A stretch of DNA of 64,000 nucleotides from Sulfitobacter sp. 20_GPM-1509m. GTDB taxonomy: Bacteria; Pseudomonadota; Alphaproteobacteria; Rhodobacterales; Rhodobacteraceae. The stretch covers positions 124,001-188,000 of the forward strand of contig NZ_JIBC01000009.1 in assembly GCF_000620505.1 (NCBI RefSeq), written 5' to 3'. Shown here piece after piece: positions 38,721 to 50,814 of the stretch (position 1 is its first letter; each line of letters begins with the position of its first letter). Below the pieces are notes generated by a model. The model saw only the letters and a program-made list of their open reading frames with translations. It was not told where the DNA came from and made no database searches. The position numbers were made by a program, and so were the translations under genes.

Positions 38721-40073
38721 ATGCAATGGTTCCTTGACCTTTTGCCCTTGTCCGACCTCAGCCGTATCGAGCTTGGGTTCTGGTCGTTCCCGATCCTGCT
38801 GGGGCTGATCTTTTTGCGCGCGCCCATCGGATTGGCGATGCTGCTGTGCGGTTTTGGCGGCTGGTATTTTGCCATGAACGGCAACCCCACACCGCTGCTG
38901 GCCAAGCTGAAATCCGAGACCTATTCGACCTTTTCCAGCTATTCGCTGACGATCATCCCGATGTTCCTGCTGATGGGCCAGTTCGCCACGCTGTCGGGCA
39001 TGTCCACCGCGCTGTTCAAGGCCGCCGAAAGCTTTCTGGGCCACCGACGCGGCGGGGTGGCTATGGCCGCCGTCGGCGCCTGCGCAGGGTTCGGCGCGAT
39101 CTGCGGGTCGTCGCTGGCCACCGCGGCCACCATGAGCCGTGTGGCCCTGCCGGAACTGCGCCGCTACGGCTATTCAGGCGGGTTTTCCACCGCGACGCTG
39201 GCAGCGGGTGGCACGCTGGGCATCCTGATCCCGCCTTCGGTCATTCTGGTGATCTACGCGATCATCACCGAACAGAACATCGCCAAGCTGTTCCTGGCTG
39301 CTTTCATCCCCGGCATTCTGGCGGCGGTGGGCTATGTCCTGACCATTTCGATCTATGTGCGCCTGTACCCCGATTCCGCAGGCACCCGCCAACCGCAACC
39401 GATGTCCGAGCGCTGGAAGGCGCTGGCCGAGACCTGGCCGGTTCTGCTGATCTTTGGCCTGGTGGTCGGTGGCATTTACGCGGGTTGGTTCACACCCACC
39501 GAAGGCTCTGCCGTCGGGGCCGCGGGCACCGGGCTGGTGGCGCTGGTGTCGGGCAACCTGAACTGGGCGGTGTTCCGCGATTCGCTGATTGGCACGGCCA
39601 AGACCACGGCGATGATCTTTTTCATCGTGCTGGGGGCGGGGTTCTACAACGGCTTTCTGGCGCTGTCCGGCGTGCCGCAGTTCATGGCCGATTACGTGCT
39701 GGGTCAGGGCCTTAGCCCGTGGGTCGTGCTGATCATCATCCTGTTCTTCTATCTGGTCTTTGGCTGCGTGATGGACAGCCTGTCGATGATCCTGCTGACG
39801 GTGCCGATCTTTTTCCCTGTCATTTCGGCGATGGATTTCGGCATGTCGCCCGAACACGTGGCGATCTGGTTCGGCATCCTTGTGCTGATCGTGGTCGAGG
39901 TCGGGCTGATCACGCCGCCGGTGGGGATGAACCTGTTCATCATCAACGCGATGGACCGCACGACCCCGATCACCGAGACCTACAAGGCGGTGATGTTCTT
40001 TGTCGGCAGCGACATCGTCAGGGTGGCGATCCTTGTGGCCTTTCCGGCCATCACGCTGTTTCTGATTCCCTAG
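38721..40073 (+). CDS. TRAP transporter large permease, DctM family
   Basis: Main transport subunit of 450 residues, with about 12 hydrophobic segments. The DctM-type features are the repeated helical hairpins ICGSSLATAATMSRVALPEL and, in the second half, VFGCVMDSLSMILLTVPIFF, ending with ITPPVGMNLFIINAMDRTT. It couples Na+ (usually) to uptake of the substrate held by DctP. It precedes the acyl-CoA ligase gene by 10 bases. Confidence 0.94.
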   Translation: MQWFLDLLPLSDLSRIELGFWSFPILLGLIFLRAPIGLAMLLCGFGGWYFAMNGNPTPLLAKLKSETYSTFSSYSLTIIPMFLLMGQFATLSGMSTALFKAAESFLGHRRGGVAMAAVGACAGFGAICGSSLATAATMSRVALPELRRYGYSGGFSTATLAAGGTLGILIPPSVILVIYAIITEQNIAKLFLAAFIPGILAAVGYVLTISIYVRLYPDSAGTRQPQPMSERWKALAETWPVLLIFGLVVGGIYAGWFTPTEGSAVGAAGTGLVALVSGNLNWAVFRDSLIGTAKTTAMIFFIVLGAGFYNGFLALSGVPQFMADYVLGQGLSPWVVLIIILFFYLVFGCVMDSLSMILLTVPIFFPVISAMDFGMSPEHVAIWFGILVLIVVEVGLITPPVGMNLFIINAMDRTTPITETYKAVMFFVGSDIVRVAILVAFPAITLFLIP

Positions 40074-40083
40074 AGGTTCCCAG

Positions 40084-41886
40084 ATGTCCCATACGCCGAT
40101 CCTTGCCCCACATTCCGTGACGCGCGAGGATCGTGCGGACGGGTCCATTCTGCTGCGGGCTGATGCGCCTTTGGGCGACGTGGCGCGCAACAGCGGCGTC
40201 TGGCTGGACCATTGGGCGCAGACCACGCCGGATGCGGTGTTTCTGGCGGAACGGTCGGGCGCAGGCTGGCGGCGCGAAAGCTACGCCAGCGTCCGGCAAA
40301 AGGCGCGGGCGATTGCGGGGTGGTTTCTGGGGCAGGGCATGGGGCCGGATACGCCGGTTCTGATCCTGTCGGGCAACAGCATCGACCACGCGCTGCTGAC
40401 GCTGGGGGCGCATTACGTCGGCGTGCCGACAGTGCCGGTGGCCGAGCAGTACACGCTGATCCCCGCAGCCCACGGACGGCTGGATTACGTGGTGAACCTG
40501 ATCAAACCCGCCCGCGTTTTTGCCGCCGATGGCGCGGCCTATGCGGCGGGGCTGGCGCGGGCGAACTGCCCTGCGATTGCGTCAGATCCGGGTGATACCG
40601 GCGCCACGCCGCTTGCCGACCTGCTGGCCCATTCCGATGCCGGGGTCGATGCGGCCTTTGCCACGGTCGGGCCGGATACGGTGGCCAAGATCCTGCTTAC
40701 ATCAGGCTCTACCTCGGACCCCAAGGGGGTTTTGACCACCCAGCGGATGATGACCACCAACCAGACCCAGCTTGCCCAGGGCCTGCCGTTTCTGCGCCAG
40801 CGTCCGCCGGTGATCGTGGACTGGCTGCCGTGGAACCATGTCTTTGGCGGGTCGCATAATTTCAACATGGTGCTGTCGGGTGGCGGCAGCCTGTACATCG
40901 ACGATGGCAAACCGCTGCCGGCCCTGTTCGGGCGCACGCTGGAGAACCTGTCGATGGTGCCCGGCACTGTCAGTTTTAACGTGCCTGTGGGCTTTGCCCA
41001 GCTTCTGACCGCGCTTCAGAATGATGCGGCCCTGCGCGAGACGTATTTCCGCGACCTCGACATGATCTTTTACGCCGGTGCGTCCCTGCCCCAAGAGACC
41101 TGGGCCGGGCTGGAGACGCTGGCCACCCAGACCGGACGCCGCGTGCCGCTGATCACCTCGTCCTGGGGGCTGACCGAAACCGCGCCGGGGGCTTTGCTGC
41201 AACAGGTGCCTGCGCGCGGTGCGGGTATCGTCGGCGTGCCTCTGCCGGGTGTGACGGTCAAGCTGGTGCCCGACGCCAACATGCGCTGTGACGTGCGGGT
41301 CAGCGGGCCGTCGATCATGCGGGCCTATCTGGACAACCCGACCAAGACCGCCGAGGCCTTCGACGACGAGGGTTATTTTATCACTGGCGACGCGATGCGG
41401 TTTGTCGATGAGGCCGACCCCAACCTTGGCCTGCGGTTCGACGGGCGCATGTCCGAAGACTTTAAACTGATGACCGGCACATGGGTGCAGGCGGCGAACC
41501 TGCGGCTCGAGATGCTGGCGCTGCTGGCCCCCTATGCCGCCGACATCGTGGTGACGGGGCAGGGGCGTGACCAGATCGGGCTGTTGATCCTTCCGAACCG
41601 CGCGGCCATCGCCAAAGCCGGGATGACGCTGGATACGGAAAACGGGGCTGGTATCTGCCCCGACCTGGCAGACATCCTGCGCAGCCGTTTGCGCGAAAGG
41701 GCGGCGGATGCCACCGGCTCGGCCACCCGCGTCACCCGCGCGCTGATTCTGTCAGACCCGCCCGACATGGGCGAAGGCGAGGCGACGGCCAAGGGCAACA
41801 TCAACTTTGCCAGGCTGCTGGCCCGCCGCGCCCGGCTGGTGGACCGTCTGTATGACGACGCAGACCCGGCGACGATCACGATCTGA
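40084..41886 (+). CDS. Acyl-CoA ligase, feruloyl-CoA synthase-like
   Basis: AMP-forming CoA ligase of 600 residues. The adenylate motif is LLTSGSTSDPKGVLTTQRM (near residue 203). The second motif is SSWGLTETAPGALLQQVPAR, and the TGD-type motif is YFITGDAMRFVDE. The sequence matches feruloyl-CoA synthase relatives (N-terminal RADAPLGDVARNSGVWLDHW) more than benzoate-CoA ligase. Directly after the TRAP genes, it probably activates the imported aromatic or phenylpropanoid acid. No enoyl-CoA hydratase/aldolase for ferulate lies nearby, so the substrate stays open. Confidence 0.85.
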   Translation: MSHTPILAPHSVTREDRADGSILLRADAPLGDVARNSGVWLDHWAQTTPDAVFLAERSGAGWRRESYASVRQKARAIAGWFLGQGMGPDTPVLILSGNSIDHALLTLGAHYVGVPTVPVAEQYTLIPAAHGRLDYVVNLIKPARVFAADGAAYAAGLARANCPAIASDPGDTGATPLADLLAHSDAGVDAAFATVGPDTVAKILLTSGSTSDPKGVLTTQRMMTTNQTQLAQGLPFLRQRPPVIVDWLPWNHVFGGSHNFNMVLSGGGSLYIDDGKPLPALFGRTLENLSMVPGTVSFNVPVGFAQLLTALQNDAALRETYFRDLDMIFYAGASLPQETWAGLETLATQTGRRVPLITSSWGLTETAPGALLQQVPARGAGIVGVPLPGVTVKLVPDANMRCDVRVSGPSIMRAYLDNPTKTAEAFDDEGYFITGDAMRFVDEADPNLGLRFDGRMSEDFKLMTGTWVQAANLRLEMLALLAPYAADIVVTGQGRDQIGLLILPNRAAIAKAGMTLDTENGAGICPDLADILRSRLRERAADATGSATRVTRALILSDPPDMGEGEATAKGNINFARLLARRARLVDRLYDDADPATITI

Positions 41887-41895
41887 CGTCAAATC

Positions 41896-41965
41896 TTGCA
41901 CTAAGTTGCGCAAAGTGCGCGGTCCTGTTGCGATATCCTGAGATTGGCGCACGATAGCGCACAAA
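41896..41965. promoter_or_regulatory. Repeat-rich promoter region of the benzoate-CoA ligase gene
   Basis: Contains a TTGCGCAA palindrome (41906-41913) flanked by GCACT (41898-41902) and AGTGC (41914-41918), and two GCGCAC copies 10 bases apart (41947 and 41957). Regulators of the BzdR/BoxR type recognise TGCA-containing repeats, so this is a plausible BoxR operator. Inferred. Confidence 0.45.
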
Positions 41966-41991
41966 TCGAGATGTCTTTGGGAGGAGCGTCT

Positions 41992-43539
41992 ATGTCCAGC
42001 GTAGCCAGCGCGAATGCAGCCAGCTATTTCGTCGATCGTCATGTGGAAGAGGGGCGCGGCGGCAAGGTTGCCTTTCGGGAATACGGCAGCGGGCGCAGCC
42101 TGACCTATGGCGATCTTGCGGACACCTCGGGGCGCGTCGCCACCGCCCTTGCGCAGCATGGCATCGTGCCGGAACAGCGGGTTGCGATGTTGGTGCTGGA
42201 CACCATCGAATTTCCGCAAATCTTCTGGGGTGCGCTCAAGGCGGGGGTCATTCCGGTCCCGCTGAACACGCTGTTGGCCACGTCGGTCTATGACGCGATC
42301 CTGCGCGACAGCCGTGCCACGACGCTGTTCGTGTCGGATGTGCTGTATGACACGGTCGCACCGGCACTGGCGGACAATCCGTTCGTGAAAACCGTTGTCG
42401 TGATCGGGGGCGCAGCACCTGACGGTACCACGTCCTACCAGAGCTTTCTGGACACCGCCGACGCCCCCACCCTGGCCTTTGACGCGAATGCGGACGAGGT
42501 GGCGTTCTGGCTGTATTCCTCAGGCTCGACCGGCCAGCCCAAGGGCGTGCATCACATCCACTCCAGCCTGAAAGCCACCGCCGACACCTATGGCGCGCAG
42601 GTGCTGGGCCTGCGCGAGGATGATGTTGTGTTCTCGGCGGCCAAGTTCTTTTTCGCCTACGGGCTTGGCAATGCAATGACCTTTCCGATGGCGGTGGGGG
42701 CCACGACCGTGTTGTTTGCAGGCCGCCCCACACCGGACAGTGTCGTGGACATTCTGAACGCCGAACAGCCCACGGTGTTCTGCGGCGTGCCCACGCTTTA
42801 TGCTGCCTTGTCGGCCTTTATGGATAAGAACGGCCCGGCCAAAGCGCCCTTGCGCCGCTGTATCTCGGCGGGCGAGGCGCTGCCCGAGGATGTAGGCAAG
42901 CGTTGGGAAAAACACACAGGCGTCGAAATTCTCGACGGTGTGGGGTCGACCGAGATGCTGCACATCTTCCTCAGCAACCGCCCCGGCGATGTCGTCTATG
43001 GCACTTCGGGCGTGGCGGTGCCGGGCTATGCGGTGCGGCTGGTGGACGAGGCAGGGCAGGACGTGGCCACCGGCGAGGTGGGCGAACTGCTGGTGCAAGG
43101 CGACAGCGCCGCCAGTTGCTATTGGAACCAGCGCGCCAAGACGCGCACCACGTTCGAGGGCACCTGGACCCGCACCGGCGACAAATACGAACGCCGCGAT
43201 GACGGACGGTTCGTCTACTGCGGGCGCACCGATGATATGTTCAAGGTGTCCGGCATCTGGGTCAGCCCGTTCGAGGTGGAAAGCGCCATCATCAGCCACG
43301 CCGATGTGCTCGAGGCCGCAGTGGTCGCCGCGCGCGACGACGACGGGCTGGAAAAGCCCAAGGCGTTTGTGGTGCTGAACGCTGGCATGTCGCCCGACGG
43401 CATCGAGGCCATGCTGAAAGAGCATGTGAAAACGAAAATCGGCAAATGGAAATATCCGCGCTGGATCACCTGTGTCGATGAATTGCCCAAGACGGCAACC
43501 GGCAAGATCCAGCGTTTCAAACTGCGAGAGGATGCATGA
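41992..43539 (+). CDS. Benzoate-CoA ligase
   Basis: Activates benzoate (or a substituted benzoate) to its CoA thioester with ATP, the first step of the box pathway. The 515-residue enzyme carries WLYSSGSTGQPKGVHHIHSS (near residue 178), the substrate region FAYGLGNAMTFPMAVGATT and GVGSTEMLHIFLSNRPGD. These are characteristic of the benzoate-CoA ligase family. A GGGAGGAG site precedes ATG 41992. Its stop overlaps the following hydrolase start (ATGA). Confidence 0.93.
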   Translation: MSSVASANAASYFVDRHVEEGRGGKVAFREYGSGRSLTYGDLADTSGRVATALAQHGIVPEQRVAMLVLDTIEFPQIFWGALKAGVIPVPLNTLLATSVYDAILRDSRATTLFVSDVLYDTVAPALADNPFVKTVVVIGGAAPDGTTSYQSFLDTADAPTLAFDANADEVAFWLYSSGSTGQPKGVHHIHSSLKATADTYGAQVLGLREDDVVFSAAKFFFAYGLGNAMTFPMAVGATTVLFAGRPTPDSVVDILNAEQPTVFCGVPTLYAALSAFMDKNGPAKAPLRRCISAGEALPEDVGKRWEKHTGVEILDGVGSTEMLHIFLSNRPGDVVYGTSGVAVPGYAVRLVDEAGQDVATGEVGELLVQGDSAASCYWNQRAKTRTTFEGTWTRTGDKYERRDDGRFVYCGRTDDMFKVSGIWVSPFEVESAIISHADVLEAAVVAARDDDGLEKPKAFVVLNAGMSPDGIEAMLKEHVKTKIGKWKYPRWITCVDELPKTATGKIQRFKLREDA

Positions 43540-44348: not shown

Positions 44349-44787
44349 GTTGCCCGGCGGCACTCCTGCGCCGGCGCACGCCTATGTGCCCGGCCAGACG
44401 GCCCGCCACCCCGAGGGCTGGTTCGATCCGCTGAAAACGGTCAACGCCGACCCTTTCGACAGCCCCGCAATGCGGGCCGGTCTGGATTATCTGCACGCCG
44501 GATATTTCTGGGAATGCCACGAGGTTCTGGAAGCCGTCTGGCTGGCGCTGCCCGATCCGTCAGCGGAGCGGCACATGGTGCAGGCGGTGATCCAGCTGGC
44601 CAACGCACGGCTGAAGCTGGCGATGGGGCGGCCAAAGGCCACGCTGCGTCTGTGCGCCATGGTGCAGGAACATCTGGTCGCAGGCCGCGCCAGCCGTCCG
44701 ATTCCCGGCGCGACACCTACCGACCTGCTGGAATGGGCAGCGAATGCTGCGGAACTGGCCGCTCAAGCGGCTGATAGTGAACTATAA
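44341..44787 (+). CDS. DUF309 domain-containing protein
   Basis: 148-residue protein with the DUF309 signature YLHAGYFWECHEVLEAVWLA (about residues 47-66): a conserved His, Tyr, Trp-like, Glu and second His-Glu pattern that resembles a metal site. The start is a TTG at 44341 that overlaps the hydrolase stop; another TTG at 44350 is possible. The family is of unknown function and is widespread. It closes the ligase-hydrolase unit. Confidence 0.8.
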   Translation: MPELPGGTPAPAHAYVPGQTARHPEGWFDPLKTVNADPFDSPAMRAGLDYLHAGYFWECHEVLEAVWLALPDPSAERHMVQAVIQLANARLKLAMGRPKATLRLCAMVQEHLVAGRASRPIPGATPTDLLEWAANAAELAAQAADSEL

Positions 44788-44864
44788 TGCTATATGTGCG
44801 CAGTATAACGCCTAATTCTTGGTTCGGAACGTTTAACTTTGTAACTATACTACACAAGAAGCCA

Positions 44865-44905: not shown

Positions 44906-46567
44906 GTGACCAAGATCATTGATTTCCGCACCGACCCCAGCAAATACCGCCACTGGCGTGTCGAATATGACGGCCCCGTGGCCAACCTGTTCATGGATGT
45001 GGACGAAGACGCGGGCCTGTTCGACGGCTACCAGTTGAAGCTGAACAGCTATGATCTGGGCGTGGACATCGAGCTGGCCGATGTGGTCCAGCGGATGCGG
45101 TTCGAACACCCCGAGGTCAAGGTCGTGGTGATGCAGTCCGGCAAGGACAAGGTGTTCTGCGCGGGGGCCAACATCCGCATGCTGGGCGGCGCCGCCCATA
45201 GCCACAAGGTGAACTTTTGCAAATTCACCAACGAAACGCGCAACACCTTCGAAGCCGCCGAGGCCGACAGCGGGCAGAAATACATCGCTGCGGTCAAAGG
45301 GGCGTGCGCGGGCGGCGGCTATGAGCTGGCGCTGGCGTGCAACCATATCATGCTGACCGACGACAGCACGTCGTCCGTGTCCTTGCCCGAGGTGCCCTTG
45401 CTGGCGGTTCTGCCCGGCACCGGCGGGCTGACCCGCGTCACCGACAAACGCAAGGTGCGCCGCGACCGCGCCGATATCTTCTGCTCGACCGAGGAAGGCG
45501 TGCGCGGCAAGCGGGCGCAGGACTGGCGGCTGGTGGACGAGGTGATCGCCAACTCGAAATTCGACGAAACCGTGCAGGAACGTGCCCGCGAATTTGCGGC
45601 AGGTTCGTCCAAGGCGGATGTGGCACAGGGCATCACGCTGACGCCCATCGACCGCACGATCGCGGATGACGGCAGTGTGTCCTATGAACTGGTCGAGGTG
45701 GCGCTGGACCGTGCCGCCCGCCGCGCCACGATCACGATCAAAGGCCCCGAAGAGGACGCGCCCGCCGATATGGACGCCTTCACCGCGCAGGGGGATGCGG
45801 CCTATATGCTGCGTCTGGCGCGGCAGTTGGACGATGCCATCCTGCACCTGCGCCTGAACGAGATGGAGGCGGGCCTGCTGGTATTCCGCACCCAGGGCGA
45901 CCCCGAACGCTTTGCCGCGCACGAGGCGCTGTTGATGGACAGTGCCGATCACTGGCTTGCCAACGAGGTGCTGAAATACTGGAAGCGCATCCTGAAACGC
46001 ATCGACGTGACCTCGCGCAGCATGGCGGCGCTGGTGGAGCACGGGTCGTGCTTTACCGGTATCCTTGCCGAAATCCTGTTTTCGGTCGACCGCACCTATA
46101 TGATGGAAGACGAATTTGACGGCGACAACCGCCCCTTGGCGACGATCAGCCTGACGGCTGCGAACTTTGGCCCGATGCCGATGTCCAACGACCTGACCCG
46201 TCTGCAAACCCGCTTCCTGGGCGAACCCGAGGCGGTGGACAAGGCAAAGGCCGCGATAGGCGAACAGCTTGAGGCGGAAGAGGCCGAAGAACTGGGCCTT
46301 GTCACCATGATTCTCGACGACATCGACTGGGAGGACGAGATCCGCATCTTCATGGAAGAGCGCGCCAGCTTCTCGCCCGACGCGATGACGGGGATGGAGG
46401 CGAACCTGCGTTTTGCCGGACCCGAAACGATGGAGACCCGCATTTTTGGCCGGCTGACCGCATGGCAGAACTGGATATTCAACCGCCCCAACGCGGTTGG
46501 TGCAGATGGCGCGCTGCAACGCTACGGCACCGGCAAACGCGGCGATTACAACATGGAACGTGTGTAA
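44906..46567 (+). CDS. boxC: 2,3-epoxybenzoyl-CoA dihydrolase (benzoyl-CoA-dihydrodiol lyase)
   Basis: Opens the ring of 2,3-epoxybenzoyl-CoA to 3,4-dehydroadipyl-CoA semialdehyde and formate. The 553-residue enzyme is crotonase-related. The N-terminal half has the oxyanion-hole segments KVFCAGANIRMLGGAAHSHK and AVKGACAGGGYELALACNHI, and PEVPLLAVLPGTGGLTRVTD follows. The C-terminal half has LVEHGSCFTGILAEILFSVD. Length matches BoxC. It uses a GTG start at 44906. It is the first gene of the box unit. Confidence 0.96.
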   Translation: MTKIIDFRTDPSKYRHWRVEYDGPVANLFMDVDEDAGLFDGYQLKLNSYDLGVDIELADVVQRMRFEHPEVKVVVMQSGKDKVFCAGANIRMLGGAAHSHKVNFCKFTNETRNTFEAAEADSGQKYIAAVKGACAGGGYELALACNHIMLTDDSTSSVSLPEVPLLAVLPGTGGLTRVTDKRKVRRDRADIFCSTEEGVRGKRAQDWRLVDEVIANSKFDETVQERAREFAAGSSKADVAQGITLTPIDRTIADDGSVSYELVEVALDRAARRATITIKGPEEDAPADMDAFTAQGDAAYMLRLARQLDDAILHLRLNEMEAGLLVFRTQGDPERFAAHEALLMDSADHWLANEVLKYWKRILKRIDVTSRSMAALVEHGSCFTGILAEILFSVDRTYMMEDEFDGDNRPLATISLTAANFGPMPMSNDLTRLQTRFLGEPEAVDKAKAAIGEQLEAEEAEELGLVTMILDDIDWEDEIRIFMEERASFSPDAMTGMEANLRFAGPETMETRIFGRLTAWQNWIFNRPNAVGADGALQRYGTGKRGDYNMERV

Positions 46568-46627: not shown

Positions 46628-48079
46628 ATGATGGACCTGATCAACGTAAGCTACGACACCCAGATCCCCAACAACGTGGGGCTGAGCCAGGACAAGAAGG
46701 TGCTGAAAGCACTGGAGAAATGGCACCCCGGTTACATCAACTGGTGGAACGACCTGATCCCGCAGAACTTTCAGGAATCGATGGTCTACCTGCGCACCGC
46801 CGTCAGCGTCGACCCCAAGGGCTGGGCCAAGTTCGATTATGTGAAAATGCCGGAATACCGCTGGGGCGTCCTGCTGGCCCCCGAGGTCGAGGGCCGCACG
46901 ATTCCGATGGGCGAACATTACGGCGAACCCGCATGGCAAGAAGTGCCGGGCGAATACCGCAACATGCTGAAACGGCTGATCGTCATTCAGGGCGACACCG
47001 AACCGGGGTCGGTCGAACAGCAACGGTTCCTTGGGCTGACCGCGCCGTCGCTTTATGACATGCGCAACCTGTTTCAGGTGAACGTGGAAGAGGGCCGCCA
47101 CCTGTGGGCCATGGTCTATCTGCTGCAAAAATACTTTGGCCGCGATGGCCGGGAAGAGGCCGACGACCTGCTGGTCCGCTCGTCCGGCTCGGACGAAGCG
47201 CCGCGGATGCTGGGCGCGTTCAACGAGGAAACGCCTGACTGGCTGTCGTTCTTCATGTTCACCTATTTCACCGACCGCGACGGCAAGATGCAGCTTGAAT
47301 CGCTGGCGCAGTCGGGCTTCGACCCGCTGTCGCGCACCTGCCGGTTCATGCTGACCGAAGAAGCGCACCATATGTTCGTCGGTGAAACCGGCGTGGGCCG
47401 CACCATTCAGGCGACGCTTGAGGCGATGGCGAAACACGGCATCACCGATCCCTATGACATCAACAAGATCCGCGATCTGGGGGTTATCGACCTGCCGACG
47501 ATGCAGAAAAAGCTGAACCTGCATTACACGCTGTCGCTGGACCTGTTCGGACAAGAGGTGTCGACCAACGCCGCCAATGCCTTCAACTATGGCATCAAGG
47601 GCCGGTACATGGAGCAGCGGATCGACGACGATCACAAGTTGTCCGATGCCACCTATCCCGTCACCTCGATCAAGGACGGCAAGATCGTGACCGAAGACGT
47701 CCCCGCCCTGACCGCCATCAACATGCGCCTGCGCGACGACTATGTCCGCGACGCCGCCGGTGGCGTGGGCCGCTGGAACAAACAGATCGCCAAGGCGGGC
47801 ATCGATTTCGAACTGAAGCTGCCGCACGAAGGGTTCCACCGCCAGATCGGCGTGTTCTCGGCCGTGGCCGTGGACCCCGATGGCAACATCATCTCGTCCG
47901 ACGAATGGGCCAAGCGTCAGAACGAATGGCTGCCGACCAAGGCAGATGGCGACTATATCCAGTCGCTGATGAAGCCCTGCTATGAACCCGGCCAATATGC
48001 CTCGTGGATCGCGCCGCCCAAGGTTGGCATCGACAACAAGCCGGGTGATTTCGAATACGTCAAACTGCACATGGCCTGA
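46628..48079 (+). CDS. boxB: Benzoyl-CoA 2,3-epoxidase oxygenase component
   Basis: Di-iron oxygenase that epoxidises benzoyl-CoA with O2. The 483-residue product has iron-ligand helices FQVNVEEGRHLWAMVYLLQK (ExxH type) and CRFMLTEEAHHMFVGETG. The N-terminus is MMDLINVSYDTQIPNNVGLS. Length and motifs fit BoxB. A GGAG site precedes the start at 46628. It lies 60 bases after boxC; BoxA, encoded after a small gene, supplies its electrons. Confidence 0.97.
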   Translation: MMDLINVSYDTQIPNNVGLSQDKKVLKALEKWHPGYINWWNDLIPQNFQESMVYLRTAVSVDPKGWAKFDYVKMPEYRWGVLLAPEVEGRTIPMGEHYGEPAWQEVPGEYRNMLKRLIVIQGDTEPGSVEQQRFLGLTAPSLYDMRNLFQVNVEEGRHLWAMVYLLQKYFGRDGREEADDLLVRSSGSDEAPRMLGAFNEETPDWLSFFMFTYFTDRDGKMQLESLAQSGFDPLSRTCRFMLTEEAHHMFVGETGVGRTIQATLEAMAKHGITDPYDINKIRDLGVIDLPTMQKKLNLHYTLSLDLFGQEVSTNAANAFNYGIKGRYMEQRIDDDHKLSDATYPVTSIKDGKIVTEDVPALTAINMRLRDDYVRDAAGGVGRWNKQIAKAGIDFELKLPHEGFHRQIGVFSAVAVDPDGNIISSDEWAKRQNEWLPTKADGDYIQSLMKPCYEPGQYASWIAPPKVGIDNKPGDFEYVKLHMA

Positions 48080-48149
48080 TGGCTTTGGCCCGGGGCGGGG
48101 TGTAACCTTGGCCCGGGCGCACGTTTTTCCGTCGCTCAGGAGACGACCC

Positions 48150-48320
48150 ATGCAAACCAAACGCACCGTGGCCTATGCGCCGCAAACCCATGCTCTGGCC
48201 GCCGATCTGGCCGCCCTGCAAGGCCCCTGTGTCGGCTGCAAAGGCTGCGAAGGGCTGTGTCAGGCGTTGATCGACGCCATGCTGATCCCCGATATGATCC
48301 TGAACGGGCGCACCTCATGA
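48150..48320 (+). CDS. 56-residue protein with a ferredoxin-type cysteine motif, coupled to boxA
   Basis: A short ORF whose product begins MQTKRTVAYAPQTHALAADL. It contains CVGCKGCEGLC at residues 27-37, a CX2CX2CX3C spacing (Cys27, 30, 33, 37) as used for one [4Fe-4S] cluster, followed by a short helix QALIDAMLIPDMIL. An AGGAG site stands 8 bases before ATG 48150, and its stop overlaps the boxA start (ATGA). It therefore looks like a real, translationally coupled gene. Only one motif is present and the usual proline after the fourth cysteine is absent. A role as a mini-ferredoxin or assembly factor for BoxA/BoxB is inference. Confidence 0.75.
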   Translation: MQTKRTVAYAPQTHALAADLAALQGPCVGCKGCEGLCQALIDAMLIPDMILNGRTS

Positions 48321-49492
48321 ATCAGCCGCTGAAACAGCACCTGATCGACCCCGAGATTTGCATCCGCTGCTATACCTGCGAGATGACCTGCCCTGTGGGC
48401 GCGATTGAACATGACGACAACAACGTCGTGGTGGATGCGGACAAGTGCAATTTCTGCATGGACTGCATTCCGGTCTGTCCCACGGGGTCGATCGACGAAT
48501 GGCGCGTGGTCGATGTGCCTTATACGCTGGATCAGCAATACGCGTTTGAGGAACTGCCCGACCAGCAAGAGATCGAAACCGCCGCCCCCTCCGAAGCGGA
48601 CGACGCGGTGGCCGACCCCATCGCGGCCCTTCTGGCCGAGGCGCATCAGGGGGCAGGCGGCAAGGCCCGTGCGCCTGTCAGCGCGGCCAAGGCGGCGGTG
48701 AATATGTACAACCTTGGCAAGCCGGCCAAGATGACGGTGCAAGGCAACTATCGCCTGACCGACGACCCCGATCACGACGTGCGCCACATCATTCTGGACC
48801 CCGGCGCGCTGCCGTTTCCGGTGCTTGAGGGGCAGTCGGTGGGGATCATTCCGCCGGGCACCGATGCCGACGGCAAGGCGCATCTGCCGCGTCTGTATTC
48901 CATCTCCAGCCCCCGCGACGGTGAACGCGCGGGCTATCACAACATTTCGCTGACGGTAAAGCGCGAGGCGCAGGGGCTGGCGTCGAACTATCTGTGCGAT
49001 CTGGCGCAGGGCGACAGCGTGAACGTCACCGGCCCCTTTGGCGCGACATTCCTGATGCCCAACGACACCAAGGCGCGCCTGCTGATGATCTGCACCGGCA
49101 CCGGATCGGCACCCATGCGTGCCTTTACCATGCAGCGCCAGCGCAGCGGCGCCACCGCCCAGATGACCATGTTCTTTGGCGCGCGCACGCCGGATTCGCT
49201 GCCCTATTTCGGCCCGCTGAAAAAAGTGCCCGAAGCGCAGATGAAGCAGCATCTGGTGTTTTCACGTACTGGCGACAAGGAATATGTGCAGGACCGGATG
49301 ATCGCCGAGGAAGAGGCGGTTGCCGATTTGCTGGCGGATGAAAATACGTATATCTACATCTGTGGCCTGAAAGGCATGGAGGAAGGCGTGGAACGCGCCA
49401 TGACCTCGATTGCCGAAAGTATCGGGCAGCAATGGACCGCTTTGCGCGATGTGATGCGCGAAGAGGGCCGATATCATGTGGAAACCTACTGA
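48317..49492 (+). CDS. boxA: Benzoyl-CoA 2,3-epoxidase reductase component
   Basis: Iron-sulfur flavoprotein of 391 residues that carries electrons from NADPH to BoxB. The N-terminus has two [4Fe-4S] motifs: CIRCYTCEMTCPVGAIE (Cys15, 18, 21, 25) and CNFCMDCIPVCPTGSID (Cys44, 47, 50, 54). A linker rich in Ala and acidic residues (about 75-125) leads to an FNR-like FAD domain (LPRLYSISSPRDGERAG) and an NADP domain (LLMICTGTGSAPMRAFTMQR). It overlaps the small cysteine ORF by 4 bp. Confidence 0.97.
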   Translation: MNQPLKQHLIDPEICIRCYTCEMTCPVGAIEHDDNNVVVDADKCNFCMDCIPVCPTGSIDEWRVVDVPYTLDQQYAFEELPDQQEIETAAPSEADDAVADPIAALLAEAHQGAGGKARAPVSAAKAAVNMYNLGKPAKMTVQGNYRLTDDPDHDVRHIILDPGALPFPVLEGQSVGIIPPGTDADGKAHLPRLYSISSPRDGERAGYHNISLTVKREAQGLASNYLCDLAQGDSVNVTGPFGATFLMPNDTKARLLMICTGTGSAPMRAFTMQRQRSGATAQMTMFFGARTPDSLPYFGPLKKVPEAQMKQHLVFSRTGDKEYVQDRMIAEEEAVADLLADENTYIYICGLKGMEEGVERAMTSIAESIGQQWTALRDVMREEGRYHVETY

Positions 49493-49922
49493 CGTGCCAA
49501 ATTTACCTTCGCCTTTTGTTCATGAAATTCGAGTGACATGGGGCGATTGCGATCCGGCGCGTATTGCCTACACGGGCCGTTTGCCGGTGTTCGCGCTGGA
49601 TGCAATCAATGCCTGGTGGGAGGCGCATCTGGACGGGGACGGCTGGTTCCAGCTGGAACTGGACCGCAACGTCGGCACGCCGTTTGTCAATCTGGCGATG
49701 GATTTCCGCAGCCCCGTCACTCCGCGCCACCGGCTGATGTGCCACGTGTGGCCGCAGCGGCTGGGCGAGAAGTCGATCACCTTCCGCGTGGATGGCTATC
49801 AGAACGATGTGCTGTGTTTCGAGGGTACGTTTACTTGCGTCTTTACCGTGGCTGACGTGTTCAAAAGCCAACCGGCCCCGCCGGATATCCGTGCGGTGGT
49901 CGAGCCGCTGATCCGGCCCTGA
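49476..49922 (+). CDS. Hotdog-fold acyl-CoA thioesterase (4-hydroxybenzoyl-CoA thioesterase-like)
   Basis: 148-residue thioesterase. The active-site segment EIRVTWGDCDPARIAYTGRL has the Asp of the 4-hydroxybenzoyl-CoA thioesterase family, followed by the long helix FALDAINAWWEAHL. The ATG at 49476 overlaps boxA by 17 bases; a GTG at 49494 would start just after it. In a box cluster it likely frees CoA from benzoyl-CoA or a stuck intermediate. That use is inferred. Confidence 0.88.
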   Translation: MWKPTDVPNLPSPFVHEIRVTWGDCDPARIAYTGRLPVFALDAINAWWEAHLDGDGWFQLELDRNVGTPFVNLAMDFRSPVTPRHRLMCHVWPQRLGEKSITFRVDGYQNDVLCFEGTFTCVFTVADVFKSQPAPPDIRAVVEPLIRP

Positions 49923-49926
49923 CGCC

Positions 49927-50814
49927 ATGACAGACCAGTCCAACACACCCTCAGACAACCCGCTGATTCAGCGATTGGCCCAGCGGGTGCGCGAGGCGCG
50001 CAAGGCTCAGAAATTGCCGCGGCGCACGCTGTCGGACCGGTCAGGCGTATCGCCGCGCTATCTGGCGCAACTGGAAACGGGGCAGGGCAATATTTCCATC
50101 CTGTTGCTGGCCCGTGTTGCCGATGCGCTGGGCGTGTCGGTGTCGGCCTTGCTGGCGGATGACGCACCGCTCAGCGATGATACCTTGCGCGTGGCGCATT
50201 TGTTCCAGGCCGCAGGGCCAGACGTGCAGGGCCGCGTGCGCGCAATGCTGGCGCCGCACGCGCCCGGCGGCGCGCGGGCCCAGCGGATCTGTCTGGTCGG
50301 CCTGCGCGGTGCGGGGAAATCGACGCTGGGCAAGGCCGCGGCGGCTGCGCTTGGCATTCCGTTTCTGGAGCTGAACAAGCTGATCGAGGAACACGCAGGT
50401 ATGCCCGTGTCCGAGGTTATGGGGCTGTATGGGCAAGACGGTTACCGCGATCTGGAACAAGAGGTGCTGGACGAGGTGATCCAAAGCGAAAACCGCATGA
50501 TCCTGGCGGTGGGCGGCGGTATCGTCGCCGAGCCGCAGACCTATACCACCCTGTTGGACCGGTTCCACACGGTCTGGGTCCGCACCAGCCCCGCCGAGCA
50601 TATGGCGCGGGTGCGTGCCCAGGGCGACCTGCGCCCGATGAAGGACAATCCGGCGGCGATGGAACAGCTCAAGGCGCTGCTGAGCGTCCGTACACCCCAA
50701 TACGAGCGTGCGCAGGCACAGGTGGACACCGCCAACCGTCCGGTTCAATCCTCGGTGAACGACCTGCTGGCGGTGATCGCCAAACACCGCTTTGTCGAGA
50801 GCATTTCCGTTTGA
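49927..50814 (+). CDS. boxR: BoxR/BzdR-type regulator with HTH and shikimate-kinase-like domain
   Basis: Regulator of the box genes that senses benzoyl-CoA in relatives. The 295-residue protein joins an N-terminal XRE helix-turn-helix (about residues 15-70, including TLSDRSGVSPRYLAQLETGQ) to a C-terminal shikimate-kinase-like domain. Its P-loop is VGLRGAGKSTLGKAAAAALG (residues 124-143). The segment FLELNKLIEEHAG stands where shikimate kinases carry the substrate-binding Asp, so it probably lacks kinase activity and instead binds the CoA ligand. It is 4 bases after the thioesterase, so it is part of the operon it controls. Confidence 0.93.
   Translation: MTDQSNTPSDNPLIQRLAQRVREARKAQKLPRRTLSDRSGVSPRYLAQLETGQGNISILLLARVADALGVSVSALLADDAPLSDDTLRVAHLFQAAGPDVQGRVRAMLAPHAPGGARAQRICLVGLRGAGKSTLGKAAAAALGIPFLELNKLIEEHAGMPVSEVMGLYGQDGYRDLEQEVLDEVIQSENRMILAVGGGIVAEPQTYTTLLDRFHTVWVRTSPAEHMARVRAQGDLRPMKDNPAAMEQLKALLSVRTPQYERAQAQVDTANRPVQSSVNDLLAVIAKHRFVESISV

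Follow-up and report, generated by a model that had tools for sequence, protein, structure and literature searches.

The 56-residue open reading frame between boxB and boxA of Sulfitobacter sp. 20_GPM-1509m was confirmed in this study to be a genuine, selected and previously undescribed protein gene, which is found in many Rhodobacteraceae. We tentatively propose, with somewhat less than even confidence, that its product is an accessory half-ferredoxin-like Fe-S protein that may relay or buffer electrons to BoxB. Descriptions of the benzoyl-CoA epoxidase recognize two parts, BoxA and BoxB. The existence of a third component that is under selection and probably carries an Fe-S motif, together with a flavodoxin gene found in the place of boxA in some genomes, suggests that the electron supply of this epoxidase is more varied than described.

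The small gene and its box cluster

The window, that is, the whole stretch of 64,000 nucleotides that was analyzed, carries the following features of the box cluster.

44906 to 46567, plus strand: boxC, 2,3-epoxybenzoyl-CoA dihydrolase of the same cluster, located upstream (TIGR03222, 969.3 bits)
46628 to 48079, plus strand: boxB, di-iron benzoyl-CoA 2,3-epoxidase (TIGR03225, 902.7 bits, cut-off 499.1)
48138 to 48142, plus strand: Shine-Dalgarno sequence AGGAG of the small open reading frame, 7-nt spacer to the ATG (sequence; upstream regions of relatives)
48150 to 48320, plus strand, including the stop codon: gene of the Cys4 protein, 56 aa, CX2CX2CX3C with Cys27/30/33/37 (open reading frame, homologues, conservation, dN/dS)
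48228 to 48260, plus strand: codons of C27 to C37, CVGCKGCEGLC (no variation of the four Cys and of Gly35 among 40 homologues)
48317 to 48320, plus strand: ATGA, stop of the small open reading frame overlapping the boxA start (sequence; 28 of 39 loci share this overlap of 4 nt)
48317 to 49492, plus strand: boxA, reductase with 2 x CX2CX2CX3CP and an FNR-type domain (TIGR03224, 507.5 bits, cut-off 459.2)
49476 to 49922, plus strand: acyl-CoA thioesterase-like gene after boxA, overlapping the boxA end (TIGR00051, 19.7 bits, a weak match below the cut-off)
49927 to 50814, plus strand: BoxR-type regulator with HTH and shikimate-kinase-like domains (NF006015, 367.5 bits)

A preliminary description of this DNA had reported the 56-aa frame, its strong ribosome site, its ATGA overlap with boxA and two [4Fe-4S] motifs in BoxA, all of which we found in the sequence. 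The translation of the frame at 48150 to 48320 is MQTKRTVAYAPQTHALAADLAALQGPCVGCKGCEGLCQALIDAMLIPDMILNGRTS, with the cysteines spaced C27-X2-C30-X2-C33-X3-C37. Its TGA (48318 to 48320) overlaps the boxA ATG (48317 to 48319), an arrangement that is predicted to couple the translation of the small gene to that of boxA, and a GGAG- or AGGAG-type ribosome site lies ahead of the small genes of most relatives. The two BoxA motifs are on the N-terminal side of that protein, at Cys15/18/21/25 and Cys44/47/50/54 in the alignment.

The same description had taken the four cysteines of the small protein for a complete ferredoxin-type set. The CX2CX2CX3C motif is indeed present, as the single motif of a protein of fewer than 60 aa, which is the pattern of semidoxins or half-ferredoxins. 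Each such motif of a classical 2[4Fe-4S] ferredoxin gives three Cys to one cluster and the fourth to the other; one motif is therefore half a ferredoxin and not plainly a complete one-cluster set. The fourth Cys of ferredoxins is usually followed by Pro, which is the case in 2 of the 40 aligned small proteins and not in the window protein.

The thioesterase-like gene is a conserved neighbor in the box loci of relatives. A DUF309-family gene, for which we know of no role in benzoate degradation, lies at 44370 to 44790 between an alpha/beta hydrolase gene and boxC; it occurs in most Rhodobacteraceae box clusters and is retained at some loci without box genes too. Directly upstream (38721 to 43539) are genes for a TRAP transporter DctM, an AMP-ligase-like protein and a benzoate-CoA-ligase-like protein, which, together with the box genes, apparently make up a single cluster for the uptake and activation of aromatic acids. 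The named relatives nearest to the window cluster are Pseudosulfitobacter pseudonitzschiae, whose small protein is 94% identical, and P. koreensis (89%).

Conservation of the small protein

The preliminary description had proposed to search for the small frame in other Rhodobacteraceae and to examine its codon conservation, and both analyses argue for a real gene. Homologues (E ≤ 2.3e-9) were found in 48 of 298 Rhodobacteraceae genomes, a sample of one genome per genus taken from a larger group. Aligned homologues are about 21 to 88% identical to the window protein. Seven positions (M1, C27, C30, C33, G35, C37 and P47) never vary in 40 of them, and G29 and L51 hardly do; the conserved core consists of C-x-G-C-x2-C-x-G-x-C, a helix and LP[DE]xx[LV], and the N-terminal half is variable and at times shortened. 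Within the genus of the window, the dN/dS of the small gene is 0.06 to 0.30 (Nei-Gojobori; 50-odd codons), far below 1. The preliminary description had named unconserved cysteines and a dN/dS near 1 as evidence against its reading, and neither was observed. No copies were found on plasmids. Two copies are broken by frameshifts (L048:8011-8173 and L049:8136-8248); an assembly error is suggested for L049, because the neighboring boxC and bclA are also broken there.

No family in Pfam or NCBIfam matched the small protein above its cut-off, and the window protein had no Pfam match at E ≤ 1. Many of its relatives gave sub-threshold Fer4 matches (best E 0.0019), which did not reach the curated cut-off of the Fer4 clan. 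Similarity to structures in the PDB was confined to the motif, in PsaC and ferredoxins (best E 2e-5). An AF2 model, which was poor (pLDDT 53, pTM 0.25; four input sequences), had a helix-loop-helix and no beta-alpha-beta arrangement. Weak matches that were examined as possible paralogues in the same genome or homologues outside the family (L002, L060 and L123) turned out to be chance frames inside or against other genes, and another match (L059) has a stop codon inside.

Linkage to boxB and to the adjoining donor gene

The distribution of the small gene follows that of boxB, which is present in 63 of the 298 genomes: the canonical small gene occurs in 42 of the 63 genomes with boxB and in 6 of the 235 without it (Fisher p ~7e-29). 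Divergent copies in three genomes (G017, with the motif CARCGGCEKGC, G140 and G241) were missed by the profile and were found by reading the gaps between boxB and boxA; when they are counted, 45 of the 63 boxB genomes have the small gene and about 18 are without any. In genomes with both genes, the small gene adjoins boxB on its downstream side wherever neighbors were read, and the order boxB, small gene, boxA holds at nearly all box-positive loci. Where the three genes stand together, the distance from the boxB end to the small-gene start is 22 to 200 nt (median 91), and that from the small gene to boxA has a median of −4 and is exactly −4 in 28 of 39 loci.

It had also been proposed that the small protein helps to load BoxA. 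As a sole role this is weakened, because the small gene stays beside boxB when boxA is elsewhere in the genome (G214 and G081) or undetected (G140 and G241). Five boxB genomes altogether gave no detectable boxA (G056, G103, G140, G221 and G241), of which G221 is 75% complete and G103 has a boxB that stops at a contig edge. The other three carry at the position of boxA the gene of a flavodoxin (about 153 aa; matches to PF00258 with E 2e-22 to 2e-24), as follows.

L065:8729-9190 (G056): flavodoxin gene in the place of boxA, directly after boxB with no small gene between
L074:11252-11710 (G140): flavodoxin gene in the place of boxA, overlapped by the same ATGA by a divergent Cys4 protein gene that lies between boxB and the flavodoxin
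L079:10985-11446 (G241): flavodoxin gene in the place of boxA, with a divergent Cys4 protein gene between it and boxB

The Cys4 variants of L074 and L079 have the spacing CX3CX2CX3C. From its gene position, the flavodoxin may feed BoxB and is a possible replacement of the epoxidase reductase BoxA. Our search of the literature found no paper on the small open reading frame or on a flavodoxin donor for BoxB. The place of the small gene behind boxB and its coupling to the donor gene next in line, BoxA or not, point to electron supply, and the coupling to boxA or to the flavodoxin in its place lends indirect support to the earlier idea that the small protein relays electrons to BoxB.

Gain, loss and retention of the small gene

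The small gene was not found in any of the 79 Alphaproteobacteria with boxB outside Rhodobacteraceae in a sample of the class. On a quickly built BoxB tree of 78 sequences, with many weakly supported branches, the pattern of its presence and absence implies no fewer than 11 changes, and the family members that branch off first are without it (L062, L076 and L122), as are L069 and L080. This pattern fits a gain within Rhodobacteraceae followed by repeated losses. Because the gene is missing from all boxB genomes sampled outside the family and was lost repeatedly inside it, the small protein is dispensable and no general requirement of BoxAB. The view of the small protein as a necessary part of the epoxidase is thus contradicted: none of the 79 boxB genomes from outside Rhodobacteraceae carries the gene, and about 18 of the 63 Rhodobacteraceae genomes with boxB are without it too.

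Conversely, some genomes keep the small gene without the epoxidase. In genome-wide searches, six genomes with the small gene had neither boxB nor boxA, and no boxC above the cut-off (G107, G144, G194, G218, G240 and G269). Three relatives from their genera (G685, G687 and G688) have no boxB beside the small gene, boxB having been sought around the small gene only; G685 has the layout TRAP-small gene, and boxC was absent from it in a genome-wide search, whereas G688 has the layout small gene-thioesterase and G687 has benzoate-CoA ligase-DUF309-small gene-degenerate boxA. The small frame is intact in eight of these nine genomes, the copy of G144 being frameshifted. A role restricted strictly to BoxAB is weakened by these nine genomes.

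In G107, G685 and G194, the small gene is directly behind a TRAP transporter operon, and in their relative G686 the whole box cluster lies between the TRAP operon and the position of the small gene. At four loci (L038, L039, L090 and L044), a TRAP operon like that of the window is followed by the Cys4 gene, and boxABC are absent, which gives the impression that flanking genes were deleted and the small gene was left in place. A shared deletion in the TRAP-small gene genomes was considered and not adopted, as the junctions gave no clear alignment. The G687 locus is a box cluster caught in decay: a degenerate remnant of the boxA N-terminus (L112:1251-1526) lies just 3' of the intact Cys4 gene, and boxB and boxC are missing there.

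Between copy pairs from these two genera, mostly of box-less genomes, dN/dS is 0.08 to 0.27; purifying selection after the loss of the box genes is not proven by these values, and the losses may be recent and independent. Among 239 genomes tested for boxA, boxA without boxB occurred once (a partial match, from a genome that is 78% complete) and the small gene without boxB four times. That the small gene outlasts boxB more often than boxA does is only suggestive, because it was the small gene that led to the box-less genomes.

Proposed role and alternatives

BoxA, which binds two [4Fe-4S] clusters, is present at far lower levels than BoxB, is not recovered with BoxB on purification, and suffices in minor amounts (PMC4498308); a helper of electron delivery is plausible for this reason. 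We suggest that the small protein would be translated together with the electron donor, BoxA or, in some lineages, a flavodoxin, and would dock beside BoxB, where it could pass or buffer single electrons to the di-iron site and so raise the efficiency of a scarce, transiently binding donor. The CxGCxxCxGxC motif is typical of [4Fe-4S] loops and favors such a cluster. Since a single motif supplies three ligands plus one, the four Cys might hold one cluster per chain, or the two chains of a homodimer might share two clusters, as half-ferredoxins do. In box-less genomes, the protein might serve another acceptor or linger as a remnant. The kind of metal, a redox function, docking to BoxB and the advantage conferred by the protein are inferred parts of this proposal. 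Counting against a relay are the 79 boxB genomes outside the family without the small gene, the losses within it and the nine genomes without adjacent boxB; the mostly missing Pro after the fourth Cys, the CX3CX2CX3C spacing in L074 and L079, the poor helix-loop-helix model and the flavodoxin of G056 without a small gene may also speak against it. It is a bolder and unlikely extension of the relay that half-ferredoxin-type mini-proteins of aerobes could be donor-independent adaptors for the di-iron epoxidase, fed by BoxA or by a replacing flavodoxin and recruited to other partners after the loss of the epoxidase.

A role in maturation or repair, which we consider rather unlikely, would have the Cys4 protein bring iron or a cluster to the metal centers of BoxB and its donor, or protect them, so that its contribution would be felt in living cells stressed by oxygen or iron and not in catalysis. 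The need for PaaD of the related phenylacetyl-CoA epoxidase in vivo and not in vitro (PMC4498308) offers an analogy. The small gene also keeps its place at boxB in genomes whose boxA is missing or located elsewhere, its scattered losses agree with a factor that helps only under certain conditions, and its survival in box-less genomes could mean that it has further clients. However, searches of Pfam and NCBIfam did not link the protein to PaaD/DUF59, SufT or any other assembly factor, and a functional partner would explain the close coupling to the donor gene at least equally well. It is improbable that the protein is a redox or metal sensor or regulator of the aromatic-acid locus, whose metal-site state tunes uptake or expression: it is a very small Cys4 protein kept without box genes beside the TRAP operon (G107, G685 and G194) or with DUF309 (G269), but it has no DNA-binding domain, a BoxR-type regulator is already at the locus, and a position inside the boxB-donor pair with coupling to the donor is not regulator-like. 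Four clustered Cys can bind Zn as well, and the conserved C-terminal helix with LP[DE]xx[LV] suggests a protein interface, as would be expected of an adaptor or coupling peptide with a purely structural role, linking BoxB to the donor without redox chemistry. Such a Zn protein is quite improbable, as the motif fits [4Fe-4S] loops and not the usual CxxC...CxxC zinc ribbons, and the similarity found is to PsaC and Fer4.

Two further explanations give the peptide itself little or no present function. If the frame were a leader whose ATGA overlap mainly sets a low translation of boxA, the −4 overlap in 28 of 39 loci and the small amounts of BoxA needed (PMC4498308) would be accounted for; the Cys are nevertheless invariant at about 21 to 88% identity, dN/dS is well below 1, and the small gene is retained in genomes that have no boxA and even in some that have no box gene at all, which makes a leader highly improbable. 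The repeated losses on the BoxB tree and the frameshifted L048 and L049 copies might indicate a remnant of a past function that is now drifting. This is hardly credible: the dN/dS of 0.06 to 0.30 largely refutes it in the genus of the window, and the break in L049, where the assembly is suspected, is probably no true decay.

Comparison with known systems

PsaC and bacterial ferredoxins resemble the small protein at the level of the motif; they mostly have two motifs, and nothing in them is similar to it beyond about 20 residues. The N-terminal 2[4Fe-4S] domain of BoxA has the same CX2CX2CX3C spacing and is encoded by the adjacent, translationally coupled gene, but it has two motifs, each with CP. 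The small protein was examined as a possible copy of this domain, and the profile-profile comparison aligned only 15 columns with 2.6% probability, covering the motif only, so that no such origin is recognizable. PaaD, too, is encoded by a small accessory gene, next to those for a di-iron epoxidase acting on a CoA ester and for the corresponding reductase. It differs in being about 170 aa with DUF59 and no detected sequence similarity to the small protein, and it is indispensable in vivo for the phenylacetyl-CoA epoxidase (PMC4498308), whereas the small gene is often lost.

In designed and natural half-ferredoxins, two chains can share two clusters, and PD1, the natural half-ferredoxin of Thermoanaerobacter, binds [4Fe-4S] as a monomer and as a dimer at −438 mV; natural semidoxins have so far come only from thermophilic anaerobes, and their functions are untested (PMC12648291). 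The small protein shares with PD1 its very small size and single CX2CX2CX3C. It is, however, 56 aa long against about 30 aa, mostly lacks the Pro after the fourth Cys, has a conserved C-terminal helix with LP[DE]xx[LV], and does not show the beta-alpha-beta fold in its (poor) model. If it binds a cluster, it would be a half-ferredoxin-like protein encoded in an aerobic oxygenase operon and not in a thermophilic anaerobe.
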